Virus record (IMG/VR): IMGVR_UViG_3300043313_001066
Location: 1 to 37,357 of that record
DNA: 37,357 bases
Source of the DNA: a virus
Reading direction: 5' to 3' (one strand)
Position 1 is the first letter of the stretch. The number at the start of each line of letters is the position of its first letter. The notes under the pieces are model-generated. The model was not told the DNA's origin and searched no databases. It saw nothing but the letters and a program-made list of their open reading frames with translations. A program made the translations under genes and the position numbers. Shown here piece by piece: positions 4,785 to 34,619 of the stretch.

Positions 4785-4815
4785 GCACCTACCCATGGAT
4801 TCGCTTTTAATTATA
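4785..4815 (-). promoter_or_regulatory. Late promoter with GGGTAGGTGC leader element (fibre gene)
   Basis: On the minus strand TATAAT (4815-4810), 15 bases, then GGGTAGGTGC (4794-4785), which lies 10 bases before the ATG at 4774. No clear -35 box. Same design as at 7642, 10909, 14745 and 19153. Confidence 0.65.
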
Positions 4816-4835
4816 TCGACAATGCCGCCCATAAA

Positions 4836-6842
4836 CTAGCCGCCTAATGCCGGGACTAATGACGACGTATCAACGCCATCGCCACTGTAGTTAGTAATGG
4901 GGGAGAAGAACTGATAAAGGTTCGTGATCTTGGCGCGCTTGGTAGCTTCACTGTCATTCGGTTGCGGCAAGTACGTCTGCCGGTAGAACGCCTCCTCCTC
5001 GGCCGGCATGTTGGCGCCGGTGTTGATACGGGCGATCGAGTTCAGGATGTTGTGGGTGATGGCTCGATAGTCGCCCGTGCCGGCCGCCCGGCTGACAGTG
5101 CTGCCGACATAGGGCAGGCCCTGGCCCGGGATGTTGTTCCGGTTCACGACCGATGGATCTTGCTGCAAGAGCTGTTCGAGCTGCTGCACGGAGTTCATGC
5201 CAGTTACTCCCTGTGCGTACTGGGAGGCGGTCGGCTTGCCATAGCCGGCCTCTTGCTCTTGCGCCTTGGGCTTGAGTTTCTCAACGGACCCCACTATGTC
5301 CAGATAATCCTTAACATCAGAGGGTTTACCCCCAGCTGCTAATATCCGCTGAATATTCGATTCGACATTATTAAAATCTAGCGGACCGCCTGGACTCGAC
5401 TCATTCTGCGAAGCTTGAGATAATGAGGTTATGTTATCCGTGCTGGGCGTCGTAGGACTGGTCGTAGCGGTTGCCGTATTTTGCGAACTGCTCGATTCTT
5501 GATCAAAGCCTGAACCAAGGAGCGCACCAGCCAATCCAGGAATCAGAACACGTTTGGCAATGGATTTGGGACCGTATGAGTTCTTTCCGACTTCTTTGGC
5601 CGATTTTGCCAATTTACCGGCCGCCTTGTCGGCACCTGAAGCCAGGGCGCGGCGAACCGGCGCACTATTAACAGCCGCGTTAGCCGCGATGCCAGCCGCT
5701 GCTCCAAGCGGACCGGCTGTAGAACCCAGGACTGCACCTGGCGTTGTGCTTATTCCAACAGCGGTATGCCCGCCGGCACCCTCGACGTTCTTCTCTGCCG
5801 CCTTACCGAGCCGTTTGACCTTGTTGATCTCCTGACCTAGCTGCTTGAGTGTCAACCCTTCAGCGGTCTTGTAGCCTGACTCATCGGCAGCATTGTGTAT
5901 CAACTTCGCGAGAGCGTCCCGAGCTTGCTTGTTGACATTATAAACCTTTGGGTCGGTTCCCTTCGCTTTATATGCCAGATCGTCAAACTCCTGGCGCATC
6001 TTCTGAAGGGTAGGCGCGTCAATGGTTTCCTTAATGCCCTTAGTCAGGTTCTTAGCCTCAGCCTTGAGGGCCTGGCCGATGGCTTGCTTGCCCAGCGGCA
6101 TCCCCGCGGCAAGCATCGGAGCATAAACATCCTTGAATGCCTTGACCACCTCATCTTTCGTGAACCCTTTGGTGATTGAGGCGACACCCTCATTGAACTG
6201 GCCGAACATCGGTTCAACGACGCCAGGCACATCCTCGGCTTTGGTGATGCCATACTTCTTGGCGGTCGCACCGATCGTCGTACCGGTGGTCAACCGATAT
6301 TTGTTCTTATCGCCCTTCGTGACGCCCAGCGCTTTGGCGGTCAGGTTCTCGCCTACGTCACCGAACTTCTTGGCAACGGCAGTCTTGACGATGCTTGGAC
6401 TCCGGGCAGCCTCACCACCCGCGTTCAACGCATCTACGAGTCCGCCGGCCTTGGCGGTCTTGCCTATGGCACCAGCGGCCTTGAGCAGCCGCAAAGGACC
6501 GGCTGAGAGCACACCTTCCTGGAGTGCCTGCCCCTTGACCCCGCTGGAGAGCTTCTCGCCGGAGAGTTGGTTTTGAGCTACTTTCCCGGCCGCTCCACCA
6601 GCTGCACCGCCCAGAAGCGCTCCAATAAGGCCTCCGGCGGCCGTTCCAATGCCAGGCAGCACGGCTGTACCGGCCAAAGCGCCGCCGGCCGCTCCACCAG
6701 CTGCACCGCCGGCGAAGCCGCCGGCCGAGGGCAATAAGGACATCAAGAACGATTTCTTCTTCTTGACCGTAGTGTCGACCGGCGCTGGCTGGCCTGGATC
6801 AAACCTGAATTGGTGTGGCGCTCGACGCAGTTGAAAGTCCAT
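4836..6842 (-). CDS. Large internal virion / DNA ejection protein
   Basis: 668 residues, the largest structural protein besides the nozzle and not a tail tape measure of the long-tail type. Residues about 35-90 form a glycine/alanine zipper (GGFAGGAAGGAAGG, GLIGALLGGAAGGAAGK), a pattern of pore-forming or membrane-penetrating segments; another small-residue helix occurs near 370-400. The middle is helical and lysine-rich (TKAEDVPGVVEPMFGQ, LTKGIKETIDAPTLQKMRQE), and the end is Ser/Thr-rich and then structured (NSIARINTGANMPAEEEAFY). In short-tailed phages, internal ejection proteins of this kind leave the capsid and build a channel across the envelope. Role inferred from composition and from its place after the tail nozzle genes. 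Confidence 0.6.
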   Translation of the reverse strand: MDFQLRRAPHQFRFDPGQPAPVDTTVKKKKSFLMSLLPSAGGFAGGAAGGAAGGALAGTAVLPGIGTAAGGLIGALLGGAAGGAAGKVAQNQLSGEKLSSGVKGQALQEGVLSAGPLRLLKAAGAIGKTAKAGGLVDALNAGGEAARSPSIVKTAVAKKFGDVGENLTAKALGVTKGDKNKYRLTTGTTIGATAKKYGITKAEDVPGVVEPMFGQFNEGVASITKGFTKDEVVKAFKDVYAPMLAAGMPLGKQAIGQALKAEAKNLTKGIKETIDAPTLQKMRQEFDDLAYKAKGTDPKVYNVNKQARDALAKLIHNAADESGYKTAEGLTLKQLGQEINKVKRLGKAAEKNVEGAGGHTAVGISTTPGAVLGSTAGPLGAAAGIAANAAVNSAPVRRALASGADKAAGKLAKSAKEVGKNSYGPKSIAKRVLIPGLAGALLGSGFDQESSSSQNTATATTSPTTPSTDNITSLSQASQNESSPGGPLDFNNVESNIQRILAAGGKPSDVKDYLDIVGSVEKLKPKAQEQEAGYGKPTASQYAQGVTGMNSVQQLEQLLQQDPSVVNRNNIPGQGLPYVGSTVSRAAGTGDYRAITHNILNSIARINTGANMPAEEEAFYRQTYLPQPNDSEATKRAKITNLYQFFSPITNYSGDGVDTSSLVPALGG

Positions 6843-7630
6843 TACCAGCCGCCTCCGCCGCTTCGACCGGATTTGACAGTGACAGACTGCGGCGCGTTCA
6901 AGAGGTTCGTACCCCAGAACAATGAGGAATACTTACGAGCAATTGCAGGTGTGATTGTATTTTTATTGTTCACAATGTCGCGATAAGCCTGTGCGGCTAC
7001 TGCGTCACCATTCGAAGCCATCGTGTAAATGATGTCGGCCGGTTCCAGGTTATTGACTTGAGCAAATCCCACGGCGCTTATAGGTTTACTGCCAAAAGTG
7101 AAGGCATAGCCACCCTTGCCGCCAAGTTTCGGGTTCTTGAGGGTCGCGCCAGGCAGTGAAAGGCTCGATTGCCCTTGGTTCTGCTGTTCGAATATCTTCT
7201 TAAAGGCGTCGCTCGACTGCGAGGCCGCACGCCGGGCAGCTTCCTCTTTCTCACGTTCAAGATCACGGTTCAGCTGGCTCTCTCTCAGGGTCATGGCCGT
7301 CTTACGCTGGTCCAGATTGGTGTTGTTGAGCGCATCGAGCAATGACGTACGTACGTCGTTTTGCGACTGTCGCACCTTGGCGACTGCCGGCAGAAAGCTA
7401 GAGGCCGTGTACTGAGCTTGTTCTGCCAGCGGAATGCCGGAGAAGCCCATGCCCCGGTCCCGCGCGCCGGCCGTAATGTCGTTGAATGCCTGGTCCTTGG
7501 TGGCGTTGAGGCCGGCGATCTCCGCCTCACCCTGCGCCGGCAGGACATCGATTCTCTGATTAATCAGTTGGCGAGACGGCGCATATCCTGCGTCGAGTTC
7601 TCTGATAATGTCATCTAAGTTTTGCGCCAC
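6842..7630 (-). CDS. Internal virion protein, probable ejection partner
   Basis: 262 residues. The GTG at 7630 has AAGG 7 bases before it. The first 150 residues are helical and charged (DDIIRELDAGYAPSRQLINQ, REKEEAARRAASQSSDAFKK), with a conserved-looking LNATKDQAFNDITAGARDRG. The end is glycine-rich (SGRSGGGGW). It ends at the start codon of the 668-residue protein, so the two are co-translated. Small helical proteins next to the large ejection protein are usual in podoviruses. No enzymatic motif seen. Confidence 0.55.
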   Translation of the reverse strand: MAQNLDDIIRELDAGYAPSRQLINQRIDVLPAQGEAEIAGLNATKDQAFNDITAGARDRGMGFSGIPLAEQAQYTASSFLPAVAKVRQSQNDVRTSLLDALNNTNLDQRKTAMTLRESQLNRDLEREKEEAARRAASQSSDAFKKIFEQQNQGQSSLSLPGATLKNPKLGGKGGYAFTFGSKPISAVGFAQVNNLEPADIIYTMASNGDAVAAQAYRDIVNNKNTITPAIARKYSSLFWGTNLLNAPQSVTVKSGRSGGGGW

Positions 7631-7641
7631 TCATTGGCCTT

Positions 7642-7668
7642 GCAACTACCCGAGTTACCAAAATAATA
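7642..7668 (-). promoter_or_regulatory. Late promoter, variant of the GGGTAGGTGC class
   Basis: Minus strand TATTAT (7668-7663), 11 bases, then GGGTAGTTGC (7651-7642), one base different from the consensus. The start codon GTG at 7630 follows at a distance of 11 bases. Confidence 0.5.
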
Positions 7669-7671
7669 CCA

Positions 7672-8265
7672 TTAATTGGCTGTCTCTTGCATCAAATATA
7701 TTTTAACCGGCAGAGGACCTAGCGAGCCGCTACTATTGAGGCTCAAAATGTTCGTAACGATGTTCACGTTCGTTGCGTCGGTGTACACGCTAATTGTAGA
7801 AATTGAAACTTGACTGCCGCTTGCCCGGGTAAACGACGTGTATGGGCAGAGAAAATAGCCCCCGGCTCCATCCTCAACGTATGCAAGGACGGATGGGACA
7901 AAGGGAAGCCCATGTGGCCGCGTCACGGTCGTAGCGTTGTAGTCCCATACACCTGCGCCGCCGGCCGTCATAAAAGTTTCATCAGTGTCGACCGTCATAA
8001 CATCGACTATTTTGAATACGTTCTGTGCGCTGTTGAAAGCCAGCTCGTCATCAGTTGCTGCCGTAACGTCAACACCCGGTTTGGCAATACGGATCCGCGA
8101 ACTCTGGTCCGGCTGTACACCGATGCTGATACTTGGAATGCCGTTTGCGTCATAAAACAACTTGGCCACATTCTCGTGGTCCAGCTCGGCGAAGTTTTTG
8201 TTCAGCATCGCTATCTGTTGGGCAGCATCAGTGCCCGGTGGGATCGGGACGAAACGGCCTGGCAT
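7672..8265 (-). CDS. Tail appendage / fibre-like structural protein
   Basis: 197 residues. It starts MPGRFVPIPPGTDAAQQIAM followed by LNKNFAELDHENVAKLFYD, a short N-terminal linker typical of proteins that dock on a tail machine, and then a beta-rich region (FMTAGGAGVWDYNATTVTRP, PSVLAYVEDGAGGYFLCPY). Its ATG overlaps the stop codon of the nozzle gene (TAATG). Likely a virion appendage; no enzyme motif. Confidence 0.6.
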   Translation of the reverse strand: MPGRFVPIPPGTDAAQQIAMLNKNFAELDHENVAKLFYDANGIPSISIGVQPDQSSRIRIAKPGVDVTAATDDELAFNSAQNVFKIVDVMTVDTDETFMTAGGAGVWDYNATTVTRPHGLPFVPSVLAYVEDGAGGYFLCPYTSFTRASGSQVSISTISVYTDATNVNIVTNILSLNSSGSLGPLPVKIYLMQETAN

Positions 8266-10238
8266 TAGATAAGCCTCTGCGTTTCAATCGCCAGCACATG
8301 CCCGTCAAAGCTCACCGGCTCCCGGGCTGCGTAGTGCTTGTACCGGTTCTGCAGCCGCCTCCACTGTCCGGGGATGGCCACGCTGTCGTCCATCGGATTC
8401 ACCTGCTGGCTGCCGCCGAACACCACGCCGGAATCAAACATGTAGCCCTCATCGAAGCGCGGGCCCGTGCCGGCAAGCGAGATGTCGGCGTACGTGGGGG
8501 AGTCGCTGTAGTCGGTGGCGTAGCCGACCTGCACGCTCCAGTTGCCGCTGACGGTGTCGAAGTGCGGGCGGTAGTGTGATGCCCGCTTGAACTGCGCCGG
8601 TGCCTGGTAGTGGTTGTAATTGGTGCGCAGTTCGTAGGTGAACGGCTCGCCCATGTTGTTGTAGTCGTTGGTCGGCAGATCGCCGAGCATCAGCATGCCG
8701 GCGCGGTTGCTGCCCTGCACGAAGTAGTTGTCGTTGTCGTCACGGGCACAGGTATGGCCGACGTAGGTGTTGGTGTCTTCGGATTCCCAGATGCCATACA
8801 GCGTGTTGTAGACCTTGCAACGGCTGTTCTGAGCCTCACCGTTCGGCGTGTAATAGACATAGAGCCGGTTGTTGTGCAGTTCCAGCACGGCAGTTGACTT
8901 GATCTGCAGTCCGGTCCACCAGTCCAGTACGTCTTTGGCGATGTTGACTTCTTCGGCGCCGTTGAACCGATAGATGCCGTCGTCACTGGCCAGGTAGACA
9001 AAGTCCTCATCAAAGCAGACTGACTCCTGGGAGAACGTGCCCTTTTGGCCAACGGCATTGTCCAGCCGGAATGTGGCGTTTTCTGCGCCGTAGAGCACGT
9101 GCTTGTTGTTGCGGGTGATGATGTACAGGCTGCCGTTCAACTTGGCATAGGCCTTGGCAGGATCCGACGTCTTCGGGGACGGCACGTAGAAGAAGTCCGT
9201 GCTCGTGAACGTCTCGTACAGGCCGAAATTGGTGTAGAACGACTTGCTTGGATCGGCGGCCGAGAGATAGAACAACAGCCCCTTATGCTCCATGATCGCC
9301 GCGGTGTTTTCAGGCGCTGCCGTGACGCTGGAGGCAGTCGCGAAGTCGTATTTACGCGGCTTGGTGGTGCCCTGGACGTAGTAGAGCGTGTCATTGACGA
9401 AGGCGAAGCGTACGTATGTAGCGGAGCTGTCCAGGCCGGTATCGACGGCGGTCGTGACACCAGTGGTCTCGTTCACCGAGTAGAGCGTGGACCCGTGAGC
9501 AAAGAACGTATACGACGTGCCGTTAGGCCGTTTGATGCGGATGCAGCCCTTGACACCGCCGGTCGTGGCCGTGGAGAGCTTGACGTTGAAATCGACCGAC
9601 GCAGCCGACCATGACTGGCCGCTATTGGTACTCACAAGCGCGGTAGTCGCGTTTGTGGTGCTGCTGATCTGATAGCTATTGGTGCCGCCGGCCTGCACGA
9701 AACCCACGACCCAATAGACCATGCCGTTGGTGATGTCCGGGCAAGTGATAGATCGGCCCTTGAGGTACTGGTAGCTGCTCGTTAGGCCGGATGCCGCAAT
9801 GGTGGTGCGCATCAGCTCTTCTCCAGGCGCGCCGGCGTTGTTGGCGTAGAGCGCCAGAACTATGGTCCCGGTGCCGCCGGCAATGTTGCGGAGATTGGCC
9901 TCGATGGCTGTCAGTGGGCCGCTCGCGGTAGCCGTGATCTTCTTGGCGAACCATGTTGTTGTGCTCAAGGCCTGGTTGCTGGCGCCGCTCGTGGAGGTCT
10001 GCTGGGCGTTGACCGCTTCGCCGATCGGGATGCTGAACAGGTCAGTGCCGAGCCGCGTCTGCCACTTGCCGACCTGGATCTCCCGCGCGTCAGTGATGTA
10101 CCGCCACTGGTTGGGGTTCATGTCGTCGTTGCTGTCATTGGTGTTCAGGCCGCCGACAAACTCATAGTCCTTGGTCTGCGTCTTGGCAGTCGTGACCGCA
10201 GGGATGCGCACTGAACGGCGTACGGCGGAGCGCCTCAT
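8265..10238 (-). CDS. Tail nozzle / hub protein (T7 gp12- or P22 gp10-like position)
   Basis: 657 residues, beta-rich. After a basic start it reads DYEFVGGLNTNDSNDDMNPN then QWRYITDAREIQVGKWQTR, a start seen in podovirus nozzle and DNA-stabilisation proteins, followed by propeller-like repeats (TLYSVNETTGVTTAVDTGLD, LYYVQGTTKPRKYDF, DEDFVYLASDDGIYRFNGAE, NNRLYVYYTPNGEAQNSR). It follows directly on the smaller adaptor gene, with ATGA overlap, the same order as tail tube A and B proteins in T7-like phages. Assignment to one named family would need a profile search; the structural role is well supported by context. Confidence 0.7.
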   Translation of the reverse strand: MRRSAVRRSVRIPAVTTAKTQTKDYEFVGGLNTNDSNDDMNPNQWRYITDAREIQVGKWQTRLGTDLFSIPIGEAVNAQQTSTSGASNQALSTTTWFAKKITATASGPLTAIEANLRNIAGGTGTIVLALYANNAGAPGEELMRTTIAASGLTSSYQYLKGRSITCPDITNGMVYWVVGFVQAGGTNSYQISSTTNATTALVSTNSGQSWSAASVDFNVKLSTATTGGVKGCIRIKRPNGTSYTFFAHGSTLYSVNETTGVTTAVDTGLDSSATYVRFAFVNDTLYYVQGTTKPRKYDFATASSVTAAPENTAAIMEHKGLLFYLSAADPSKSFYTNFGLYETFTSTDFFYVPSPKTSDPAKAYAKLNGSLYIITRNNKHVLYGAENATFRLDNAVGQKGTFSQESVCFDEDFVYLASDDGIYRFNGAEEVNIAKDVLDWWTGLQIKSTAVLELHNNRLYVYYTPNGEAQNSRCKVYNTLYGIWESEDTNTYVGHTCARDDNDNYFVQGSNRAGMLMLGDLPTNDYNNMGEPFTYELRTNYNHYQAPAQFKRASHYRPHFDTVSGNWSVQVGYATDYSDSPTYADISLAGTGPRFDEGYMFDSGVVFGGSQQVNPMDDSVAIPGQWRRLQNRYKHYAAREPVSFDGHVLAIETQRLI

Positions 10239-10894
10239 AGCTCAACGCGGGTCCTTGCTGATGGGATCTGTACCGGTGCAACTTGGGTCGGCTCGCCATA
10301 ACGCAGCGCCATGTTCTCCAGGCCGTCTTCGAAGTCCTGCTTGTGCGTGGCGGCAATGTCATGGTTGCCACGCTTCTTCTCGCTTCGGAATAGCGCATAG
10401 AGCTCCAACAGCTCACGGAACGCTTCAGGTGCATCCGGTACGTCCGTAGGGGCTGACATGCTGGTCGGCGCGCGGAAGTAGCGCTGCTTGAACGTGTAAT
10501 CGTCGTACATCGGGCAGTTGAAGTAGATGAGCCGCCCGAACTCAGTCCAGGCGCTCGGAAAGCCGCTCGTCTCAAGATCGGGAGCCGGGTACTGATCGAA
10601 AAATTGCCGGTGCGGAATGTAGGTATTTTCGTCAAGGATGAGCCGGCGGCCGGTGTTGCTCGGGTCGTAAACAATGCCCCGGATCGTCTGCTGGTGATTC
10701 GACTGCTGCGCGTATGCATACGAGCCGATAGTCAACGGCCCCTGAACCGACTCTTCGCAAAACCGGAACAGGTGCGTGTTGAAAATGACCAGCTGACCAT
10801 AATTGAGGTAGCGCGTGATGCGGGATGTAGAAAAATTAGAGTCCTGCAAGTCATCCTGGACCGCGGATTGCAGATCAAGTAGCGTGTAAGACAA
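10235..10894 (-). CDS. Head-tail adaptor / tail tubular protein A-like
   Basis: 219 residues, read from TTG at 10894 with GTAGGT 8 bases upstream. Begins YTLLDLQSAVQDDLQDSNFS then RITRYLNYGQLVIFNTHLFR, a helical adaptor start, with later PDAPEAFRELLELYALFRSE and KRGNHDIAATHKQDFEDGLE. This pattern (two helices, a central beta insertion, a C-terminal helix after 'P..Y...L...A') matches gatekeeper/adaptor proteins of short-tailed phages that join the portal to the nozzle. It overlaps the nozzle gene by 4 bases. Confidence 0.65.
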   Translation of the reverse strand: MSYTLLDLQSAVQDDLQDSNFSTSRITRYLNYGQLVIFNTHLFRFCEESVQGPLTIGSYAYAQQSNHQQTIRGIVYDPSNTGRRLILDENTYIPHRQFFDQYPAPDLETSGFPSAWTEFGRLIYFNCPMYDDYTFKQRYFRAPTSMSAPTDVPDAPEAFRELLELYALFRSEKKRGNHDIAATHKQDFEDGLENMALRYGEPTQVAPVQIPSARTRVEL

Positions 10895-10908: not shown

Positions 10909-10937
10909 GCACCTACCCTGTACTGATTTGCATTATA
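10909..10937 (-). promoter_or_regulatory. Late promoter with GGGTAGGTGC leader element (tail genes)
   Basis: Minus strand TATAAT (10937-10932), 13 bases, GGGTAGGTGC (10918-10909). A second GTAGGT lies between it and the TTG start at 10894 and may be the true ribosome site. Confidence 0.65.
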
Positions 10938-13764: not shown

Positions 13765-14358
13765 TCAAGCAATCCTGAAGCCAATAGCCGGAGGATTTTG
13801 AGAGGTAACCGATCCGCCGGCCGTATACGTTGAAGGCAAGGCACCATAGGCCAAAGATGGGTTCCACATGCTGCCGACACCAGTGCCCATAGTCGTATCG
13901 AGTCCAAAAATTGGAATCGTCCCGCCAAGCGCTAACGACCGGACGGTTGCCGTGGCCACTCCAGGCAAATAAACAAACCAATACAGATTGCCCCCTACGA
14001 GTGTCACGGGGGTGATTGTAATATCCTTGACACCAGTAGAATCAGTCGCAATCTCGCCGCTATCAACAATACGCGAGGACGGATACGGATTGTCCTCAGA
14101 TGTGTTGTTGTAAATACCGACACGTGCAACACCACCGGCAGAGGCCGCTGACGTGACATTTATCGTAAGCCGGTCAATCGAGATTGTCTTCTCACAAAAG
14201 AACGGTATGGCTTTTAACTCATTTAGCGCTGGCGTTGCAGTGGACAGAGCCAACGCATTTGTCATACCTGCTATCCATCTGCGGTTGGCCGTTGCACCCG
14301 GTGTCCTGAATGACTCCCAAGTTTTGCTGCTTTTGCGAGTGACTTGAAATCCATTCAT
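13765..14358 (-). CDS. Head or tail fibre-like beta protein
   Basis: 197 residues, beta-rich: NELKAIPFFCEKTISIDRLT, GGVARVGIYNNTSEDNPYPS, LVGGNLYWFVYLPGVATATV. A carbohydrate-binding-like or fibre-tip fold is plausible. It lies between the short upstream structural gene and the tail spike, and its start overlaps the upstream stop codon (TAATG). No catalytic motif. Confidence 0.55.
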   Translation of the reverse strand: MNGFQVTRKSSKTWESFRTPGATANRRWIAGMTNALALSTATPALNELKAIPFFCEKTISIDRLTINVTSAASAGGVARVGIYNNTSEDNPYPSSRIVDSGEIATDSTGVKDITITPVTLVGGNLYWFVYLPGVATATVRSLALGGTIPIFGLDTTMGTGVGSMWNPSLAYGALPSTYTAGGSVTSQNPPAIGFRIA

Positions 14359-14738
14359 TACGCTACATACGCGAACGTCACGCCCTCGCCACTAACAGTT
14401 ACATCTAGATAGATCTTCACCAGATCATCAATGTCTATAACTACAGAGTCACCCGCACTCAGCGGCGCGCCTCGGCGCGTGGCGCCAGATGCGGCAACAA
14501 CGGTGGAGCCGCCGACAACAACGGTTCCGGTGTTAGTAAGCTTTGCTGTAATAACCACTGACTTGCAGGGGGTTGTTGAGGCGACGAGTGTTTCGCGTGT
14601 ACCAGCAGCAGCAACCAGCTTTAAGTTGTCACCAATGGCAGAGTTGGTCGCAGGCCCAACCAATTTTGTATTGATCGCATTGTTAGCAGTATCAAAATTC
14701 GATTGAAGATGTCGACCAGGGACAGCATAAAGGTCTAC
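14358..14738 (-). CDS. Small structural protein with unclear start codon
   Basis: The frame reads VDLYAVPGRHLQSNFDTANN, then KLVAAAGTRETLVASTTPCK and a beta-rich end (SGEGVTFAYVA); the first part resembles starts of phage fibre or head-decoration proteins. Between promoter 14745-14771 and this segment the frame has no ATG, GTG, TTG or CTG. An ATG exists only upstream (14801), inside the terminator and promoter, which cannot be the start of the mRNA made from that promoter. The GTG inside the GGGTAGGTGC element would need a +1 step to enter the frame. The 5' end given is the first residue that looks protein-like. Confidence 0.5.
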   Translation of the reverse strand, partial: VDLYAVPGRHLQSNFDTANNAINTKLVGPATNSAIGDNLKLVAAAGTRETLVASTTPCKSVVITAKLTNTGTVVVGGSTVVAASGATRRGAPLSAGDSVVIDIDDLVKIYLDVTVSGEGVTFAYVA

Positions 14739-14744
14739 CTGCGC

Positions 14745-14771
14745 GCACCTACCCTTGATGCTCGAATTATA
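14745..14771 (-). promoter_or_regulatory. Late promoter with GGGTAGGTGC leader element (head/tail genes)
   Basis: Minus strand TATAAT (14771-14766), 11 bases, GGGTAGGTGC (14754-14745). It follows a terminator directly, so it restarts transcription of the structural genes. Confidence 0.65.
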
Positions 14772-14781
14772 ACAATATCCG

Positions 14782-14813
14782 AAAAACAAAAACAGCCCCA
14801 AATTGAGGCTGTT
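14782..14813 (-). terminator. Intrinsic terminator after the head genes
   Basis: Minus strand AACAGCC ... GGCTGTT, a perfect 7-bp stem (14813-14791) followed by TTTGTTTTT. It lies 19 bases after the stop of the 14832-15209 gene. Confidence 0.75.
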
Positions 14814-16181: not shown

Positions 16182-16946
16182 CTATTGGGACAACAAACCG
16201 TTGACAATCTTTTGGGTTTCGGGCTTGGCACGCTCGGCCGCTGAAAGGCCGCTGTACCACTCATCGAAGTTCGCCTTGGTGACCGGCGGTGTCCCCATTG
16301 CTGAAGACGTCGCAGCACCGTGGACTGCCTTGGCTTGTTGCTTGTCGGCAACCCGCTGGAGTGCTTCCCTGCCACCTTCGGTCTTCAGTTGGGTTTCCAG
16401 GCCGGCGTCGCTGCCCTTCGTCATGTCGTAGATGTTCTGCAAGTTCAAATAACCGTGCTCAAACAAAAGACCGACTTGCGGGTTCTCCTTGACGTACTCG
16501 GCCATCTTGGGACGCATCGCAGAATCGACGTCATCGCGGGCGAAGAACTCGCTGACAGCCGTCTTCGTTTCCAGGGCCCGTATCCGATCCTCATTGGGAT
16601 CAGTTTGAAGCCCGGTATCCTCGGCTGTCTTTTGCGACGACTCGGTTATGGTGCGCTCAAGATTGGATGCCTTCTCTGTTGACTCATGCATCGTCTTCTC
16701 AGCGTTGCGGTACATCTCAGCTACCTTGCTGAGTGCCTCCGGGCTGTTCGGGTCGATGCCCTTCTTCTGAAGCCATTCCAGGTTGTCGTCTGTGCCGGCC
16801 TGGTTTGTGTCCTCGTTAGAAGTGGTGGTGGTTTGTGGTTCTTGTGGCTGCGTAGCCGCTGCCGCCGGATCTACACCGGTGCCTGGTTGTGCAGAAGGAT
16901 CTGCGCCAGTCCCGGGATCCGCGGCAGTTGTGGTTGATTCGCTCAT
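16182..16946 (-). CDS. Capsid scaffolding protein
   Basis: 254 residues from the ATG at 16946, which has AAGGAG upstream. The first 60 residues are low-complexity and acidic (SESTTTAADPGTGADPSAQP); then a long helical region (LSKVAEMYRNAEKTMHESTE, RTITESSQKTAEDTGLQTDP), and a C-terminal basic helix-turn-helix-like end (NFDEWYSGLSAAERAKPETQ). This composition is characteristic of scaffolding proteins, which co-assemble with the coat protein and leave the head before DNA entry. It lies between portal and coat genes as expected. Confidence 0.75.
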   Translation of the reverse strand: MSESTTTAADPGTGADPSAQPGTGVDPAAAATQPQEPQTTTTSNEDTNQAGTDDNLEWLQKKGIDPNSPEALSKVAEMYRNAEKTMHESTEKASNLERTITESSQKTAEDTGLQTDPNEDRIRALETKTAVSEFFARDDVDSAMRPKMAEYVKENPQVGLLFEHGYLNLQNIYDMTKGSDAGLETQLKTEGGREALQRVADKQQAKAVHGAATSSAMGTPPVTKANFDEWYSGLSAAERAKPETQKIVNGLLSQ

Positions 16947-17019
16947 GGAACCTTTTCTCCTTGTTAAATTGCTCTGGGTTGCCCCTTTCTGCACAGCACA
17001 GTTGTCACTTGGGTAGGTG

Positions 17020-17035
17020 GGAGCCCCTTGGCTCC
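17020..17035. other. Hairpin in the spacer upstream of the scaffold gene
   Basis: GGAGCC-CCTT-GGCTCC in the 204-base spacer between the 17151-17441 gene and the scaffold gene. There is no T-run. It may stabilise the mRNA or adjust scaffold dosage. I see no gene in this spacer. Confidence 0.35.
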
Positions 17036-17150
17036 TAGCAAAATATTGCCTTGAAGTAATAAATTGCCTGCACTGTGCAGCTTGTGGCCGGGAAACGAGT
17101 TCCCCGCTCCGGCCGCCTGCCTACCTGGCGGCCAAAGCGGAAAACCGCCG

Positions 17151-17441
17151 CTATTCTTCCGGCGCCAGGTCCTTGTCGTTATCGAAATAACCGGTTTCAA
17201 GAAGAGCTGCGTCATGAGTCAGTAAGTCAATAGCCAGCCGGAGGCCTGCAGCGCGTTCAACCTTCAAGGCCTTTTCATCGATACTTTGCGCTTCCTCGGC
17301 CTCGTGGTGCAGGTTGTTGTAGATCGCGCTCAATTTGGCGATGCTCCAGCCGCCATAGACAGTGTCAAGAAACTGCTGGGCCAGCTGAGCCAGGCGCTTC
17401 ACGTCTAATTGCGGCGGTTCCTGCTGCGATTTCGTGCTCAT
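17151..17441 (-). CDS. Small head-region protein
   Basis: 96 residues, acidic and mostly helical (LDVKRLAQLAQQFLDTVYGG, SIAKLSAIYNNLHHEAEEAQ, KALKVERAAGLRLAIDLLTH). It is translationally coupled to the portal gene by an ATGA overlap. Could be a head accessory or small scaffold factor; I do not recognise the family. Confidence 0.6.
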   Translation of the reverse strand: MSTKSQQEPPQLDVKRLAQLAQQFLDTVYGGWSIAKLSAIYNNLHHEAEEAQSIDEKALKVERAAGLRLAIDLLTHDAALLETGYFDNDKDLAPEE

Positions 17442-19156
17442 GGCGCTACCTCATCGGGGGCCGGCTGCGTAAAGAGGCTTGCGAGCGGGTTTGTAGACCC
17501 GCCGGCACCATCAGCCGACCCGGTAGGGGCTGTCGGCACCATTGGAGCCGCAGCCGGCTTCTGAGCGCCGATAATTCGGTCCAGCTCTTCCTCAGTCAGG
17601 TCGAACATCTTCGGATAGAGGATCTTCTTGGCTTCCCACAAGTCGTTGGTGGGGTCCTTGATCAAGATTTGATAAGCCTCGGCGGCTTTCTGGGAGTCTT
17701 GCGCCTTCGAGTTCTTAATGCTGGCTTCAAGCCGGATGCGCGGCTCGTGGGTGTCGTCAAACTGGCCAGGATCGAACGCCCGGAACTTCGGCCCCTCGAT
17801 GCTGCTGACCGGCACCAGCTGCTTGTCCTTTACATAGGCCAGCATCATGCGGAATACGATCTTGGAGCGCTGATAGAAGCCCTCACGCTCGAGCATGCGG
17901 ATGTACAGCTCGAAACGCTCCCCGGCCTGGTTGAGCTGCGCGCGGATCTCCGTGGCCGTGGACCGCTGGTCAGATGAGACGCCCTTGACGACCTGGTCGG
18001 CGGCAACGGCTTCCCGTATGTCGCTCTTGATGTTGCCCGACTCCTGGAAGGCGCCGGCCGGAATGCCTGGCTTCTGCACGAACTTCCAGCTGCCTGGCTT
18101 GAAGGGATAGACGGTGCTGGGCGCATTCTTCATCTTGGGCAGCCAGGAGATGTATGACGGGTCCAGCTCGGACTGGGGATTGAGCGCATCAGTCACCGCA
18201 TCGACCCGTTGGTTGGTGATGTCGTTGAGCAACTCGACCGGATGAGCGATCGGATCGATGATGGCTTTGCCGTAGATGACCGATTCGTCAGCGATGAAGC
18301 GATGGATAACCAGGCAATGGATGCCGAGCTTGTTGTCACGGTCCTCGATGGTCACCATGCGGTTGGCGACGCTCTTGATCTTCTTGCCGTCCCAGATCTC
18401 GATGACCTCGATGTCATCGTCTGAGTTACGCAGGGAGCCAAGCTTCATGTCCTTCAGCTCTTTGTCGGTCTCTTCACTGCTGCTGGCGCCGGCTGTGATC
18501 TTGTCCAGGTTCTTGAAGCGCGGCTTAGGCTCGCCGGTCTTGGGATCAACGATCTTTTCAGCCGCCAGGGCGTCCTTGGTCGTGATGTAGCGCCGGCCGC
18601 TGTAGTAGTCGTCCGGGTTAGTGATGAGCTGCATGGGATCGGTCAGGCTGGGGTCGATGATGGCGTCCCGGACATTCATGTTGATAATGCGCGGCTTGTC
18701 TCCGTCCCAATAGACCCACTCGCAGGCCGTGCCATAAATGAAGCCGCTGCGTACCGTCTTGATGCTCTTAAGGTCCCAGTTGTCGCATTCCCAAAAGTAG
18801 TCATATAAAGCGTTGAGGGCCTTAAGATCGGGCCTCTTACCCTCTTGGTAGTACGACATGATGTACTTGTACATATCTTGGGGCTCAAAATCGATAGAAG
18901 GCCGGCCAACGCAGAGCGCGGCTGTCAGCGTCTCGACCGTTGAAAAGGGTAGGGGTACAAACGTGTTGGTAATGCCCTGGTACCCGACCAGCGCCCGCTT
19001 GTTGTTATACAGCTTCCAGTTCCGGTCCCAACGGCTGTGATGGTTGCCCTCGGCGTATTCCCAGGAGCCCTTGAAGCGGTCGACAGCCGACTTGGCTGTC
19101 TGCATTACCTTGCGTTTTGATATTGCCGATTTTGGCATGTGCCAACGTTTATGCAC
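17438..19156 (-). CDS. Portal protein
   Basis: 572 residues from the GTG at 19156, or 566 from the ATG at 19138. Seen: an N-terminal helical part (RFKGSWEYAEGNHHSRWDRN) with LPFSTVETLTAALCVGRPSI and FEPQDMYKY, a central domain (IINMNVRDAIIDPSLTDPMQ), and the long C-terminal helix region (STATEIRAQLNQAGERFELY, REGFYQRSKIVFRMMLAYVK). This is the style of podovirus portal proteins (P22-like), the twelve-subunit ring through which DNA enters and leaves. The gene follows the terminase genes, interrupted by a plus-strand cassette. The GTG start lies inside the GGGTAGGTGC element of its own promoter, which leaves no room for a normal ribosome site. Confidence 0.8.
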   Translation of the reverse strand: MHKRWHMPKSAISKRKVMQTAKSAVDRFKGSWEYAEGNHHSRWDRNWKLYNNKRALVGYQGITNTFVPLPFSTVETLTAALCVGRPSIDFEPQDMYKYIMSYYQEGKRPDLKALNALYDYFWECDNWDLKSIKTVRSGFIYGTACEWVYWDGDKPRIINMNVRDAIIDPSLTDPMQLITNPDDYYSGRRYITTKDALAAEKIVDPKTGEPKPRFKNLDKITAGASSSEETDKELKDMKLGSLRNSDDDIEVIEIWDGKKIKSVANRMVTIEDRDNKLGIHCLVIHRFIADESVIYGKAIIDPIAHPVELLNDITNQRVDAVTDALNPQSELDPSYISWLPKMKNAPSTVYPFKPGSWKFVQKPGIPAGAFQESGNIKSDIREAVAADQVVKGVSSDQRSTATEIRAQLNQAGERFELYIRMLEREGFYQRSKIVFRMMLAYVKDKQLVPVSSIEGPKFRAFDPGQFDDTHEPRIRLEASIKNSKAQDSQKAAEAYQILIKDPTNDLWEAKKILYPKMFDLTEEELDRIIGAQKPAAAPMVPTAPTGSADGAGGSTNPLASLFTQPAPDEVAP

Positions 19157-19182
19157 CTACCCTGATGCTAATAGGAATTATA
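19153..19182 (-). promoter_or_regulatory. Late promoter with GGGTAGGTGC leader element (portal)
   Basis: Minus strand TATAAT (19182-19177), 14 bases, GGGTAGGTGC (19162-19153). It restores transcription of the head genes downstream of the plus-strand cassette. The GTG of the element is in frame with the portal. Confidence 0.7.
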
Positions 19183-29505: not shown

Positions 29506-29590
29506 TTATTCACGCTTGCTGTGGATAAATCGGCCTTGCGCAGATGTGTGAAGGCCCCGTGTGGCAGCTGTGTGCGTGGCGTGTGGATCG
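29506..29590. other. Origin-like region with DnaA boxes
   Basis: A perfect DnaA box TTATCCACA (reverse strand, 29520-29528), a near box TTATTCACG (29506-29514) and a weaker TGTGGATCG (29582-29590) stand close together before the replication gene. The 30436 box lies after it. Known: DnaA binds such boxes to open origins. That this is the phage origin is inference. Confidence 0.5.
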
Positions 29591-29725
29591 CCGGCTAGCT
29601 GTAGGCAGTATCTACGCTGGTCAGCGCCGGTTCGCGCGCCTGACATACGGTACGTCCATGCTTCCCACTACCTTCCGCCAGCGGCGCAGGACTCGCGCGG
29701 CGCCAGCCGTGTTTTAATAAAGCGC

Positions 29726-30430
29726 ATGACGCTAAGTCCGCGCGATGCGCGAATCGTGCAGCTCGTCGAGAGGTTCAAGCAACTTTCTTCCGCTCATATC
29801 CATGAGCTTGTTTTTACTGGCCATGCTTCGCGTACGCCGTGTGACCGCGCTCTGTTACGCCTAACTCAACAGAATTATATAAATAGAATAGAAAGAAAGA
29901 TGGTAGGCGGAGCCGGGGGCGGCTCCGGCCAGTACGTCTATAGCTTAGGGCGGCGCGGCTTCTTTACCCTCCGTGACGGAGGGGAGTACAGACGGACACG
30001 GACTGTCAACTATCACACGTTGGCTATCGCTGACGCATTTCTGACGTTCAAGCGCTTGGAGCGTGCCGGCGTGCTGACAATTGCCGGCGTTTCCACTGAA
30101 CCTGATTGCCATGTAGAAGTTGGCGGCCTTTACCTCAAACCCGATATGCACATAGACATCACGCACGCGGGCGAGCGGCGCAAGCTGTGGCTTGAGGTTG
30201 ACATGGGGACGCAGGGACAGCGCGTCATCCGCGACAAGCTGGAGCGCTACTGGCAGGCGTATAAGTACACGGTAAGCCAGGAATGGCCAAGCTTTCCGCT
30301 GACCTACTTTGTCGCGGTTGACGATGAACGTGTTAAAGAACTCCGCTGGTTACTTGAGCAAGGCTCAAATGAAGCGCAAACGCTGTTCCGTATAACGACT
30401 AATGAACAGCTTCCGTCTCTGTTTGAATAG
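29726..30430 (+). CDS. Replication-relaxation (Replic_Relax) family protein
   Basis: 234 residues from the ATG at 29726, the point where the family-like sequence begins (TLSPRDARIVQLVERFKQLS). A winged-helix part (HIHELVFTGHASRTPCDRAL, LRLTQQNYINRIERKM, SLGRRGFFTLRDGG) is followed by VNYHTLAIADAFLTFKRLER, LKPDMHIDITHAGERRKLWL, EVDMGTQGQRVIRDKLERYW and LTYFVAVDDERVKELRWLLE. The PD-(D/E)xK-like order (D...E/D...) matches Replic_Relax proteins of actinobacterial plasmids and mobile elements, thought to act in replication initiation or DNA nicking. A start at 29561 would add an atypical Cys/Ser-rich extension. DnaA boxes flank the gene. Confidence 0.7.
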   Translation: MTLSPRDARIVQLVERFKQLSSAHIHELVFTGHASRTPCDRALLRLTQQNYINRIERKMVGGAGGGSGQYVYSLGRRGFFTLRDGGEYRRTRTVNYHTLAIADAFLTFKRLERAGVLTIAGVSTEPDCHVEVGGLYLKPDMHIDITHAGERRKLWLEVDMGTQGQRVIRDKLERYWQAYKYTVSQEWPSFPLTYFVAVDDERVKELRWLLEQGSNEAQTLFRITTNEQLPSLFE

Positions 30431-30444: not shown

Positions 30445-30446
30445 GG

Positions 30447-30492: not shown

Positions 30493-30577
30493 AAAAGCAT
30501 GCTTATTTAGGTAGGCATGAAGCATTAACAATCTAACAACTCATGCGCTCCTTGTCAGTAATAAAGGAGCAATAACA

Positions 30578-31513: not shown

Positions 31514-31927
31514 TCAACCCTTGGTAAGGTCAACATACTGTGAAGCGAGATCTATTTTGCGCAAATGGTGTCGTTTCGGTCTAAAGCTGCTTGTTTTCAC
31601 CATTCTGTACAGCCGTACGCCCTCTTTGACTTCATGCAATAGTTGCCGACGATAAGCGACCTCCTGCTTGCCTAAAATCACTTGAGCACCCTTAGACATG
31701 TTGCAACGCGCATGAGTCAGTGAAAGATTCTTAGCGTTGTTCGTTCCACCTTCAAACACCGGCAGAATGTGGTCTATGTGCACGGCCAGGCCTAGTGGCA
31801 GCAAACAGATAAAACAAAGATTGGATTGCTTACGCCGTAGGATCTCAACCCATTCGCGACCAGCTTCTGTAAACCGCCACGCGGCATAGGCTTTACGTCG
31901 TCCACTCCTGAAATTTTTATCAATCAT
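31514..31927 (-). CDS. HNH endonuclease
   Basis: 137 residues from the ATG at 31927 (AAGGGGG precedes it; the start at 31960 has none). CFICLLPLGLAVHIDHILPV then FEGGTNNAKNLSLTHARCN: two CxxC-type cysteine positions (C..C and H..C), the catalytic HIDHI and the N..L.H..CN end are all present. It could be a free-standing homing enzyme or a helper for DNA packaging; HNH proteins often lie beside terminase genes, but here the distance is about 10 kb. Convergent with the plus-strand operon across a terminator. Confidence 0.85.
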   Translation of the reverse strand: MIDKNFRSGRRKAYAAWRFTEAGREWVEILRRKQSNLCFICLLPLGLAVHIDHILPVFEGGTNNAKNLSLTHARCNMSKGAQVILGKQEVAYRRQLLHEVKEGVRLYRMVKTSSFRPKRHHLRKIDLASQYVDLTKG

Positions 31928-31997
31928 TAGCCCCCTTACCCCATATTGCGCTCCGCGCAAGGGTGTTTACGTTTTCCTTCCCTCCCTCTCTCCCTCT

Positions 31998-32051
31998 GGT
32001 GATTGAATCCTAGTCCGAGGAAACCTCTGGGTCCTAGTTCAATTTATCACC
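31998..32051. other. Long imperfect hairpin
   Basis: GGTGATTGAA pairs with TTCAATTTATCACC (a TTT bulge), and CCGAGG-AAA-CCTCTGG forms an inner stem. 54 bases in total. It has tRNA-like ends but no tRNA arms. Untranslated RNA or terminator-like structure. Confidence 0.45.
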
Positions 32052-32068
32052 GTCGGTCGGTCGGTCGG
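32052..32068. repeat. Four GTCG units in tandem
   Basis: GTCGGTCGGTCGGTCGG, a tetranucleotide repeat directly after the long hairpin. Confidence 0.8.
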
Positions 32069-32142
32069 CGCTGTCCTGGGTTTCTTTTGAGTAGCTATCC
32101 CGTACGCAGCACTACGTATCCCGCTACTGACTGATTTGCGTG

Positions 32143-32170
32143 TTGACAAATAGAGACCGTTCCCTATACT
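32143..32170 (+). promoter_or_regulatory. Strong plus-strand promoter
   Basis: TTGACA (32143-32148), 16 bases, TATACT (32165-32170), the closest match to the bacterial consensus in the window. No gene starts for 300 bases, so it drives an untranslated RNA or leader. Confidence 0.65.
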
Positions 32171-32176
32171 TAAATA

Positions 32177-32233
32177 CAGGTAAAGGCAGCCCCTCTTAGG
32201 AGGGGTTTTCTATTTGCAGGTAAAGGCAAATAG
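32177..32233 (+). ncRNA. Leader with terminator and repeated AGGTAAAG hairpin
   Basis: CAGGTAAAGGCA occurs at 32177-32188 and again at 32217-32228. Between them CCCCTC-TTAG-GAGGGG-TTTTC (32190-32210) is a terminator. The second copy is held in the loop of a perfect 8-bp stem, CTATTTGC ... GCAAATAG (32210-32233). The likely product is a short RNA of about 35 bases with some read-through. Attenuator or small RNA; mechanism unknown. Confidence 0.45.
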
Positions 32234-32273
32234 TCCTCAATATTGAACCATGGCCGCTTCGCTTTTGCAAGTG

Positions 32274-32279
32274 TATAAT
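32274..32279 (+). promoter_or_regulatory. -10 box of the small RNA
   Basis: TATAAT preceded directly by GTG; no -35 box at 17 bases. Starts the RNA at about 32286. Confidence 0.45.
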
Positions 32280-32285
32280 GACTTT

Positions 32286-32380
32286 GACTCCCGGCCCGTA
32301 GTTTTCAGGCTGCAACGCGGGGAGTCATTATTGTGAGGTTGAGCGAGAGCGTCTTACCATTTTGGTGGTAGGGCGTTTTT
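32286..32380 (+). ncRNA. Structured small RNA ending in a terminator
   Basis: From the TATAAT at 32274 the RNA would hold a stem TGACTCCC/GGGAGTCA (32285-32292 with 32320-32327), a single-stranded GTGAGGTTGAG box (32333-32343) and a final stem CGTCTTACC/GGTAGGGCG followed by TTTTT (to 32380). The last 48 bases recur at 33223-33270 with compensating base changes in the stem. No open frame inside. Confidence 0.5.
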
Positions 32381-32433
32381 GTATACATCATCGGCTGCCT
32401 AGGTACGACGTCGTAAGCTACAAGTCATAAAGA

Positions 32434-32463
32434 TTGTCGTAAGTATGTTCCGGACGCTAATCT
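32434..32463 (+). promoter_or_regulatory. Leaderless-type promoter of the 32470 cargo gene
   Basis: TTGTCG (32434-32439), 18 bases, TAATCT (32458-32463), then 6 bases to the GTG. Same geometry as at 24957. Confidence 0.65.
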
Positions 32464-32469
32464 TCACCT

Positions 32470-33195
32470 GTGAGCCAGCCGAACGAAAGTGCGCAGAACC
32501 CCGGACCGATTCGACGGTTGCTGGAGGGCATCATCACAAACGTGGTGTCTGCTGCGCTCCTGTGGCTCGCCGCGAAAGCGACGGGTCTCGTCGAAGGCTA
32601 TCCACAAATTACATGGATTGCAATCGGTGTCACATTCGGCGCTATTGTCACTGTGCTCGCACGGTATCTCATGCATCACGAACGTCTCTTATGGCGCGTC
32701 CGTGAGTTTGTAAATTTCATCAACCTTTCCACGCCTGCAGGTTGTGTCCTGGCACTAATAGGCGGGGCAAGTTTACGGCGCACTGACACTGAGTACCGAA
32801 TGATCCATGCATCAGGGTATCGACTAAAGTACCCAATAAGGATGGTTTTCACTATCGGCAATGTTGTTATCTCTCCGTTCGACACGGCAGGCCTACCGGG
32901 AAATCTATTAGCACATGAGCGGCGTCACGCAACGCAATATGCGTGGTGCCTCGGTCTACTTGCAGTAATTCCTTACGCGTTGGCTTGCACTTGGTCGTGG
33001 ATGCGAACTGGTAGAACCGACGTGAAGAATATATTTGAGACTCGTGCCGGATTTGACCCAAAGAACTATGAATATAGGGACGACCCCGTAAAAAGACCTC
33101 CACAATGGGTCTGGCTATTGATTGGTCTTGCTTTGTGCAGCATATTGGGAGCAATTGGTTGGTTGGCTTACCAACTTATCAAAACATACATTTGA
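32470..33195 (+). CDS. Membrane protein with HExxH motif, putative metalloprotease cargo
   Basis: 241 residues from GTG, without a ribosome site. N-terminal helices at about 21-37 (IITNVVSAALLWLAAKATG) and 48-64 (TWIAIGVTFGAIVTVLARY), a soluble part (RMIHASGYRLKYPIRMVFTI), the motif LLAHERRHATQYAW (H149, E150, H153), another hydrophobic region (LGLLAVIPYALACTW), then NIFETRAGFDPKNYEY, and a last helix (WLLIGLALCSILGAIGWLAY). The HExxH followed by an (F)E..AG segment suggests a zinc site with a distant glutamate. Related membrane proteins in actinobacteria are of unknown role. Bracketed by two homologous RNA/terminator elements. Confidence 0.65.
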   Translation: MSQPNESAQNPGPIRRLLEGIITNVVSAALLWLAAKATGLVEGYPQITWIAIGVTFGAIVTVLARYLMHHERLLWRVREFVNFINLSTPAGCVLALIGGASLRRTDTEYRMIHASGYRLKYPIRMVFTIGNVVISPFDTAGLPGNLLAHERRHATQYAWCLGLLAVIPYALACTWSWMRTGRTDVKNIFETRAGFDPKNYEYRDDPVKRPPQWVWLLIGLALCSILGAIGWLAYQLIKTYI

Positions 33196-33222
33196 ATACC
33201 TACTCGCGCCCGCTTTCATTCC

Positions 33223-33270
33223 GTGAGGTTGAGTGAGGACGCCTGATTATTTCGGCAATCGGGCGTTTTT
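33223..33270 (+). terminator. Second copy of the structured terminator element
   Basis: Exactly 48 bases, like 32333-32380. Shares GTGAGGTTGAG and the end GGGCGTTTTT; the stem is CGCCTGATT/AATCGGGCG. Ends the mRNA of the cargo gene. Confidence 0.75.
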
Positions 33271-33317
33271 GTTGAACTGACCATGCTTGGTAGGGTCACG
33301 AGCGCAAATCACCAATA

Positions 33318-33335
33318 TATACAAACTTTGGTATA
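33318..33335. promoter_or_regulatory. Imperfect palindrome in an AT-rich region
   Basis: TATACAAACTTTGGTATA within a run of TATA-like sequence. Could hold a -10 box and an operator. A terminator follows 15 bases later, so a very short RNA may be made. Confidence 0.35.
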
Positions 33336-33349
33336 TTTATATCGCAGCA

Positions 33350-33378
33350 CCCGCCTTGGTGACGACCTTGGCGGGTTT
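33350..33378 (+). terminator. Intrinsic terminator near the end of the 33382 gene
   Basis: CCCGCC ... GGCGGG followed by TTTCTTC on the plus strand; the stem may also work in the other direction for the minus-strand gene, whose stop is 4 bases away. Confidence 0.55.
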
Positions 33379-33381
33379 CTT

Positions 33382-34500
33382 CTATGTTAACCGCCGCGGA
33401 ACCTTGCCGCTCTCGGTGAGAACATACGATCTGGTTAGATAAGTCATGTCTGCGCCGTCAAATTCCCTGCGTGGGTAGCGCATAGCACGGGATGCGATAG
33501 CTATCGATATGGCTGCGCCGATGCCGTCGAACACCCATTTGATTGCAGGTAAACCACCAGTGAAAGCTGTTGTGGCAATACCAGTTGCAATGGTGATGCC
33601 GGCTGCACCCAGCTGGATCTTACGAGATCGCGCAGCCCTATGTACCTGTCCAAGGGCTCGTTCAATTTTCGCTCGATGGTCCATGATCTTGCGCGTAGGT
33701 GCGTCCGATTCCAATGCGTCTCTTAGCATTTCGTTTACCGCAATACGGAATGCGAAAAGATCATCTCGATAAGACTCTCGAAACGCGATAATGGTTGAGA
33801 GTGGGACTGTCGGACGAGGTACAGGCAGCAGTCCATCGAGCAATACCTGGTAGCAGTGTGAGCGCTCATCCTCGCGGAAGTATTCTTCGTAAAAACGATA
33901 TAGTCCAGAATCCGAGTCCCAATACGAGTCACCAGGAACCTCGAAAGACCCGCCCATGGGTTCAGTAATGAATTTGAAGTATTCAACAGAATCAGTGCTA
34001 GCCGTTATTGCCAGTCTGTCGCGTGGGAAGGCGTACCCAGGCAGCCTTATTGCATGTGTGGCAATCACCGATTGGATAGCATAGAGTGCATAAGTCGGCA
34101 TCTCTAAATATTTGCCCTTGACGGTGGCTAAGCCACTGGAAACGATTCGCTTCTGAAATCTTTCCGCTAGCTTGCTGCCAATTAATTCACTTGTTTCGAC
34201 TTTGCTCAGATCCTCATGACCCGCTTTAGCCTCCACCAGAGCGTTTATTGCTCGGAATAGGTCATACGTGAAGTGCCGTTCGTCTCCCATGAATTGACTA
34301 GTGACTGGGATCCAATGTCCCTCCTTTTCCAGCCACTGCAAAGCATTTGCGTTGTCGTCGTTGGCGGTCAATGCCGGAAGATCGGCCCCCCCTTCGTAAC
34401 CTATTGGGACAATGGTTGAAATCGAATCAAAGAACAATAGCGATTGCTTCATCCATGCAAGCGGCGGAACAATGTACGGGTAGTACAGCGCGACTTCCAT
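33382..34500 (-). CDS. DUF6236-like cargo protein
   Basis: 372 residues. The start VALYYPYIVPPLAWMKQSLL then FFDSISTIVPIGYEGG strongly recalls the DUF6236 family of actinobacteria, whose function I do not know. A helical middle (DYDLFRAINALVE-type, residues about 80-130), FREDERSHCYQVLLDGLLPV, a region RESYRDDLFAFRIAVNEMLR, and near the C-terminus two hydrophobic stretches (QLGAAGITIATGIATTAFTG, WVFDGIGAAISIAIAS). AAGGAG lies 11 bases before the ATG. Divergent from lsr2. Likely lysogen-expressed cargo; defence is possible but unproven. Confidence 0.65.
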   Translation of the reverse strand: MEVALYYPYIVPPLAWMKQSLLFFDSISTIVPIGYEGGADLPALTANDDNANALQWLEKEGHWIPVTSQFMGDERHFTYDLFRAINALVEAKAGHEDLSKVETSELIGSKLAERFQKRIVSSGLATVKGKYLEMPTYALYAIQSVIATHAIRLPGYAFPRDRLAITASTDSVEYFKFITEPMGGSFEVPGDSYWDSDSGLYRFYEEYFREDERSHCYQVLLDGLLPVPRPTVPLSTIIAFRESYRDDLFAFRIAVNEMLRDALESDAPTRKIMDHRAKIERALGQVHRAARSRKIQLGAAGITIATGIATTAFTGGLPAIKWVFDGIGAAISIAIASRAMRYPRREFDGADMTYLTRSYVLTESGKVPRRLT

Positions 34501-34589
34501 ACCGCTCAGCGCTCCTTAAAGGCCCGGAATCTCGTAAAGACTCCGCAACAACCACACCAATCACTAAAGTTTATGTTACGCTCAACGGT

Positions 34590-34619
34590 TAGAATCCGAC
34601 TAGTGGAAGGGTAGGATCC
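34590..34619 (+). promoter_or_regulatory. lsr2 promoter with GGGTAGG leader
   Basis: TAGAAT (34590-34595), 13 bases, GGGTAGG (34609-34615), then ATCC and the GTG start. Plus-strand member of the TATAAT / GGGTAGG class. Here the element is also a plausible ribosome site. Confidence 0.5.

Follow-up and report, generated by a model that had tools for sequence, protein, structure and literature searches.

What is a ten-base sequence for that recurs behind the late promoters of one phage? The question is raised by a 37,357-base phage contig (IMG/VR virus record; 55% G+C), the whole of which is called the window here. The 10-mer, GGGTAGGTGC, termed element E, lies downstream of the -10 box in late promoters, with four exact minus-strand copies at 4785, 10909, 14745 and 19153. 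We consider it likely that element E is a 5'-terminal tag of late mRNAs and the target of an antisense loop, P4, of a four-way-junction RNA (4WJ) in the scaffold/capsid leader. With at most one mismatch, the 10-mer gave 9 matches (1.87 +/- 1.33 expected); TATAAT-N8-20-GGGTAG was found four times against 0.04 expected, and four was reached in 0 of 100 shuffles. The gaps between TATAAT and the element were 15, 13, 11 and 14 bases at 4785, 10909, 14745 and 19153, respectively. A sequence-only reading of the window had placed these four promoters at the right coordinates, and their number is far above chance; its descriptions of the 7642 site (TATTAT-N11-GGGTAGTTGC) and of the sequence upstream of lsr2 (TAGAAT-N13-GGGTAGG) were likewise accurate. 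Membership of the "weaker forms" that it listed at 30510 and 37193 was unsupported. When the 515 TANNNT sites were ranked by how well they pair with the antisense loop, the lsr2 site came 9th; it is retained as a candidate only.

About 12 related viral contigs (L005-L009, L171, L199-L203; portal 61-72% identical) were collected by portal and capsid searches. Element E follows a TANNNT box, often an extended -10, by 9-15 nucleotides (nt) before orthologous genes: before portal (kept in L007, L008 and L009), at the 14358 position (position-equivalent promoters to 14745 in L171, L199, L200 and L203), before 10235-10894 (orthologous promoters to 10909 in L005, L006, L171, L199 and L200) and before 6842-7630 (to 7642 in L006, L171 and L200). 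About half of the family sites have an extended -10 (TGn), with which the reported lack of -35 boxes agrees. From the first G of the element to the start codon there are 24, 24, 21 and 20 nt in the window; over 23 family sites the median distance is 22 nt (interquartile range 21-24, range 18-36), all sites lying at 18-25 nt apart from two outliers, 32 and 36. Contrary to what had been claimed, the distance is not erratic, and the "zero distance" at the portal arose from a mis-start at a GTG inside the element, the true start being ATG 19138. The variants are GGGTAGGTG (window, L007, L009), GGGTAGGCG (L005, L008), GGATAGGTG (L199), GGGTAAGTG (L006), GAGTAAGT (L200) and GGGTTTACG (L201); strong copies within one phage usually agree, and the sequence varies between phages. 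Random frequency of the element in related phages, named in the sequence-only reading as grounds for giving it up, was looked for, and the element survived the comparison.

The plus-strand match GGGTAGGTGG at 17011 reads CCACCUACCC in reverse complement and falls within the scaffold-gene leader, which separates gene 17151-17441 from the scaffold gene. This leader is conserved in all relatives containing it, with a long stem P1 that encloses P2, P3 and the small P4. Compensatory (two-sided) changes were found in 14 of the 20 pairs counted, P2 being left out of the count owing to poor alignment there; 89.9% of cells pair in the 4WJ alignment (32-51% for slid structures), and none of 500 shuffles reached any of the five measures. 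The P4 stem is kept while its 5' antisense strand changes (CAC/GUG, CGU/ACG, UUUAC/GUAAA), as expected for RNA. A covariance model (R1) built from six 4WJ sequences matched outside the training set in L006 (1.5e-5), L005 (2e-4) and, weakly, L200 (0.053); no match was found in 712 kb of distant terminase relatives or in 637 kb of other contigs, and an Rfam search of the 4WJ returned no family match. By computation, the 4WJ is a conserved RNA structure, and it adds a structured RNA family not described before. Most relatives carry a hairpin and a GGGG/CCCC hairpin at the place of the two upstream leader hairpins of the window (Table 1); kissing between the loop of the window upstream hairpin, AGGUAGGCA, and P4 was considered and rejected, as it is not conserved.

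Element E and P4 change together between phages. Matched RNA duplexes of the two had a mean energy of -15.8 kcal/mol, versus -11.9 (standard deviation 0.7) when permuted (p = 5e-6, 11 phages); for eight phages with distinct P4, using mainly non-portal elements, the values were -17.7 and -12.2 kcal/mol (standard deviation 1.1), the observed pairing being the best of all 40,320 (exact permutation p = 1/40320). Because the duplex segments had been cut by hand, a P4-driven scan was run in which the P4 of each phage was the sole query and 24-base windows were scored along its own contig; this reduced the concern and did not remove it. In L200 the three best non-self matches (7073, 12509, 15845) all follow TGGTATACT and all carry UACAGAGUAAGU, which at these three late promoters is a 12-base perfect complement of P4, the loop carrying ACUUACUCUGUA. 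In L199 the two best matches were both element sites just after -10 boxes, and element sites were among the best matches in L006, L203 and the window. Limiting the scan to TANNNT sites gave the same picture. The computed facts are, accordingly, an element behind the -10 box and about 22 nt before starts, a loop complementary to it, and joint change of the two.

Matched divergence, fixed orientation and the maintained P4 stem together argue for RNA-RNA pairing, and one RNA probably controls several virion genes by this means. The sequence-only reading had proposed a binding site for an activator or repressor, a signal for antitermination or translation control, or an initially transcribed sequence. 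Its idea of a shared late-gene control element stands; as to the nature of that element, the evidence favours control at the RNA level through a complementary loop that the sequence-only reading had missed. The loop would pair with element E in trans, since the 4WJ lies upstream of promoters 14745, 10909, 7642 and 4785 and is absent from their mRNAs; the portal element heads the transcript that carries the 4WJ. The messages that carry element E, at about -22 to -13, lack a Shine-Dalgarno sequence, in contrast to the scaffold gene with its AAGGAG. A duplex of 9-14 bp over roughly -25 to -12 of these short mRNAs would keep 30S subunits off, and rising scaffold/capsid mRNA would damp translation of minor virion genes (portal, tail and similar). 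Judged from the sequences, translation repression would be the likeliest, although uncertain, outcome of the pairing. Phage late genes are usually seen as set by promoters and proteins. If the proposal is true, a phage regulon is under the control of a single RNA loop that belongs to the leader of the most abundant capsid message and is aimed at minor virion messages, with stoichiometry control as a possible purpose.

Table 1. Features of the late promoters, the scaffold leader and the compared mycobacteriophage hairpins (window coordinates unless a mycobacteriophage is named)
Feature	Position	Strand	Composition
Portal promoter	19153-19182	-	TATAAT 19177-19182; element E 19153-19162; portal start ATG 19138
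Promoter before gene 14358-14801 region	14745-14771	-	-10 14766-14771; element E 14745-14754
Promoter before tail-protein gene 10235-10894 (TTG start)	10909-10937	-	-10 10932-10937; element E 10909-10918
Promoter before gene 6842-7630 (GTG)	7642-7668	-	TATTAT 7663-7668; variant GGGTAGTTGC 7642-7651
Promoter before gene 4475-4774	4785-4815	-	-10 4810-4815; element E 4785-4794
Candidate weak element before lsr2	34590-34622	+	TAGAAT-N13-GGGTAGG; GTG 34620; membership not established
4WJ RNA, scaffold leader	16989-17080	-	P1 17068-17080/16989-17001; P2 17038-17067; P3 17020-17035; P4 17006-17019
P4 hairpin	17006-17019	-	CAC-CUACCCAA-GUG; loop and 5' strand are antisense of element E, CACCUACCC
Two upstream leader hairpins	17089-17133	-	17111-17133 and 17089-17106
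Start of scaffold gene 16182-16946	16944-16962	-	Shine-Dalgarno AAGGAG 16957-16962; ATG 16944-16946; downstream of 4WJ
Antisense hairpin of start-associated sequence, K1 Adephagia	58,683 (L227 30684-30695)		Apical loop
Antisense hairpin of start-associated sequence, K4 Fionnbharth	45,292 (L241 1292)		Gap before primase gene
Antisense hairpin of start-associated sequence, K5 Kratio	813 (L250 813)		15-16-bp stem

Several points weigh against control of late mRNAs by the P4 loop. The family consists of about 12 phages only, all of them metagenomic contigs; the permutation tests used hand-picked segment ends, and a motif first pointed to several of the element sites. The best P4 matches in L005 are not element sites. 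Portal elements pair poorly with P4 in L005, L006, L199 and L200, and the portal message therefore seems the least consistent target. Counts of G-U versus A-C mismatches do not separate RNA from DNA pairing. No promoter with a good hexamer was found within 520 nt upstream of the 4WJ, which is therefore probably made as part of the portal-scaffold-capsid message; its existence as a separate molecule, or its action in trans, is inferred from sequence.

The same pairing could have the opposite outcome, the 4WJ loop shielding the extreme 5' ends of late mRNAs from 5'-end-dependent decay, or aiding their translation, and so activating late genes. Counted from the inferred transcript start, element E would fall at about +1 to +18, every target gene is needed late, and pairing of the streptococcal RNA FasX at the 5' end of ska mRNA stabilises that mRNA (PMC4691137); yet on short leaders the duplex would sit where the 30S subunit lands, FasX has a repressive effect when it pairs near the cpa ribosome site (PMC4691137), and the analogous pairing in the cluster K mycobacteriophages discussed below would mask an AGGAG Shine-Dalgarno core. 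Such 5'-end protection is the main alternative outcome to repression, possible although we would not expect it. Read as DNA, a reverse-complementary copy is equally a copy of one double-stranded site, and E and P4 might be the same operator for a phage DNA-binding regulator, in opposite orientations at the late promoters and in the scaffold leader; operators co-evolve with their own protein within a phage, and asymmetric sites exist, for example the mycobacteriophage stoperators (as cited in PMC3203893). We regard a DNA operator as improbable: the lone reversed copy always falls in a small hairpin (its loop and 5' strand) inside a conserved RNA structure, the partner strand of that hairpin changes to hold the stem, for which an operator has no need, and the reversed copy of the window has no TANNNT -10 at promoter distance before it.

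It is very improbable that element E is an ordinary start feature, either a Shine-Dalgarno variant or an initial sequence for promoter escape, with an incidental complementarity to P4. AGGTG does resemble the 3' part of a Shine-Dalgarno sequence, and the element closely trails the -10 box; however, its end stands at least 10-14 nt from most start codons, farther upstream than a Shine-Dalgarno sequence would be, the L200 variant UACAGAGUAAGU is unlike one, and a generic feature leaves the matched divergence of E and P4 unexplained. Identity with the Shine-Dalgarno sequence proper (complement of the 16S tail, about 5-10 nt before the start) was rejected on distance and on the L200 and L201 variants, the host 16S tail not being compared. 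Chance repeats, or shared ancestry without function, are scarcely credible. The relatives do share ancestry, and conserved identical copies alone say little; the copies, however, mostly agree within a phage and differ between phages, at orthologous places and with a matching loop, and the permutation tests and the P4-driven scans already make such a reading unlikely.

Beyond the family, distant terminase relatives (L082-L159) and Saccharibacteria relatives (L205, L213-L217) gave no convincing element E and no 4WJ match. A scan of all viral contigs for TATAATN9-18GGGTAGGTGC gave 55 matches and was set aside, as chance could give as many by a rough estimate; among the contigs concerned only one (L009/L053) encoded relatives of window proteins. 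A group II intron start and a T7-type promoter were weighed by eye and found unsupported. GGGTAGC after TATAAT in the distant relatives was likewise rejected as element E, being part of a different capsid leader RNA. There, the leader of the presumed major capsid gene, about 130 nt long, opens with GGGUAGC directly after TATAAT (L092 5473, L096 11505, L111 9581, L120 6121, L127 11007, L129 13172) and contains repeats of what looks like an internal-loop motif (GGGUAGC opposite GNGUCC); the L096 and L129 leaders had no credible Rfam match. In two Saccharibacteria-associated relatives (L213, L214) TATAAT stands 7-8 nt 5' of the portal start codon, which suggests leaderless mRNAs.

The minus strand of the window carries a podovirus-like virion block (terminase, portal, major head protein, tail spike and internal virion protein families) and a serine recombinase-type gene; the plus strand carries Lsr2 and Replic_Relax genes. 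Promoter 14745 has no clear in-frame start codon: gene 14358-14801 is without in-frame ATG, GTG or TTG from the promoter to well inside the gene, ATG 14728 being in another frame, and a frameshift or an assembly error is possible. Plasmid-like functions stand in this virion-encoding contig, namely a TrwB/TraG-like ATPase (9-1274), Replic_Relax (29561-30430) and a serine recombinase (35635-37071). Lsr2 was above the family cut-off in only 4 of 117 Saccharimonadia genomes; lsr2 being rare there, the host is put as probably Saccharibacteria or an actinobacterial partner.

Among known systems, the c4 antisense RNA of P1/P7 (RF01695) is likewise a phage-encoded structured antisense RNA upstream of coding genes in one operon; it is complementary to a leader region and represses. 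The P4 loop of the 4WJ is also complementary to target leaders, but to those of several mRNAs, mostly on other transcripts. The 4WJ gave no match to RF01695, even at E up to 10, and precedes scaffold/capsid genes and not an icd/ant antirepressor operon; c4 controls one antirepressor operon and lysogeny, whereas the 4WJ loop faces several late promoters. FasX, a small RNA of group A Streptococcus (PMC4691137), base-pairs at the 5' ends of its target mRNAs, of which there is more than one, but is a bacterial stand-alone RNA of other structure; it stabilises one target and represses another, and the sign of the E/P4 pairing is not told by it. The mycobacteriophage stoperators (cited in PMC3203893) are repeated short asymmetric sites across a phage genome, but are protein-bound DNA sites without a tie to a complementary RNA loop.

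A 2011 paper (PMC3203893) reported start-associated sequences (SAS) in cluster K mycobacteriophages, repeats that it left unexplained; four of the phages each had one copy in the opposite orientation. Their role was still given as unknown in papers of 2024 and 2025. SAS, GGGATAGGAGCCC, is short and asymmetric and precedes, in a single orientation, the start codons of numerous genes in one phage (PMC3203893); many one-orientation copies before gene starts and a lone opposite copy are common to SAS and element E. SAS, however, lies 3-9 nt from the start codon and overlaps the Shine-Dalgarno sequence, while the first base of element E has its median at 22 nt, and GGGTAGGTGC does not match the consensus GGGATAGGAGCCC within about 3-9 nt of the start. 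SAS marks mainly non-structural genes, element E virion genes. In K1, K4 and K5 the only complementary SAS copy found occupies the apical loop of a strong hairpin, at three non-homologous places (Table 1). Adephagia and CrimD carry the opposite copy in a noncoding gap of 0.4 kb that has relatives in 177 phage records; there it lies within the loop CCUCCUAUCC of a strong hairpin. The same loop tops a different stem in Fionnbharth (K4) and a 15-16-bp stem in Kratio (K5), and this stretch is an annotated coding gene in Kratio and unannotated in many relatives. About 0.001 exact 9-mers in such a hairpin loop are expected per genome, and two control patterns gave no loop match longer than 8. No SAS antisense hairpin was found in ZoeJ (K2) or Unicorn (K6), no exact hairpin copy in K2, K3 or K6, and no such exact loop in Boilgate (K8), which is without SAS. 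Hairpins of about -30 kcal/mol were observed in Pixie (K3; 58,816, L239 ~13816) and Aminay (K7; 37,147, L246 ~9147), with SAS-like loops in the opposite strand sense: their coding strand holds the SAS-like core, and the complement of that core is on the other strand.

The cluster K hairpins are not a 4WJ, and covariance model R1 matched none in the cluster K loci searched; the resemblance is best taken as analogy, not homology, and the antisense hairpin as a candidate partner for SAS. Whether unrelated actinobacterial and candidate phyla radiation (CPR)-type phages share a one-RNA regulon, in which one hairpin loop encoded by the phage is a master antisense to a start-proximal tag on many of its mRNAs, with E/4WJ and SAS/hairpin as independent instances, appears to us evenly balanced; if so, tag and loop would co-evolve in each such regulon. 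The comparison provides a concrete, testable candidate partner for SAS, and Mycobacterium smegmatis allows the phages concerned to be grown and engineered.

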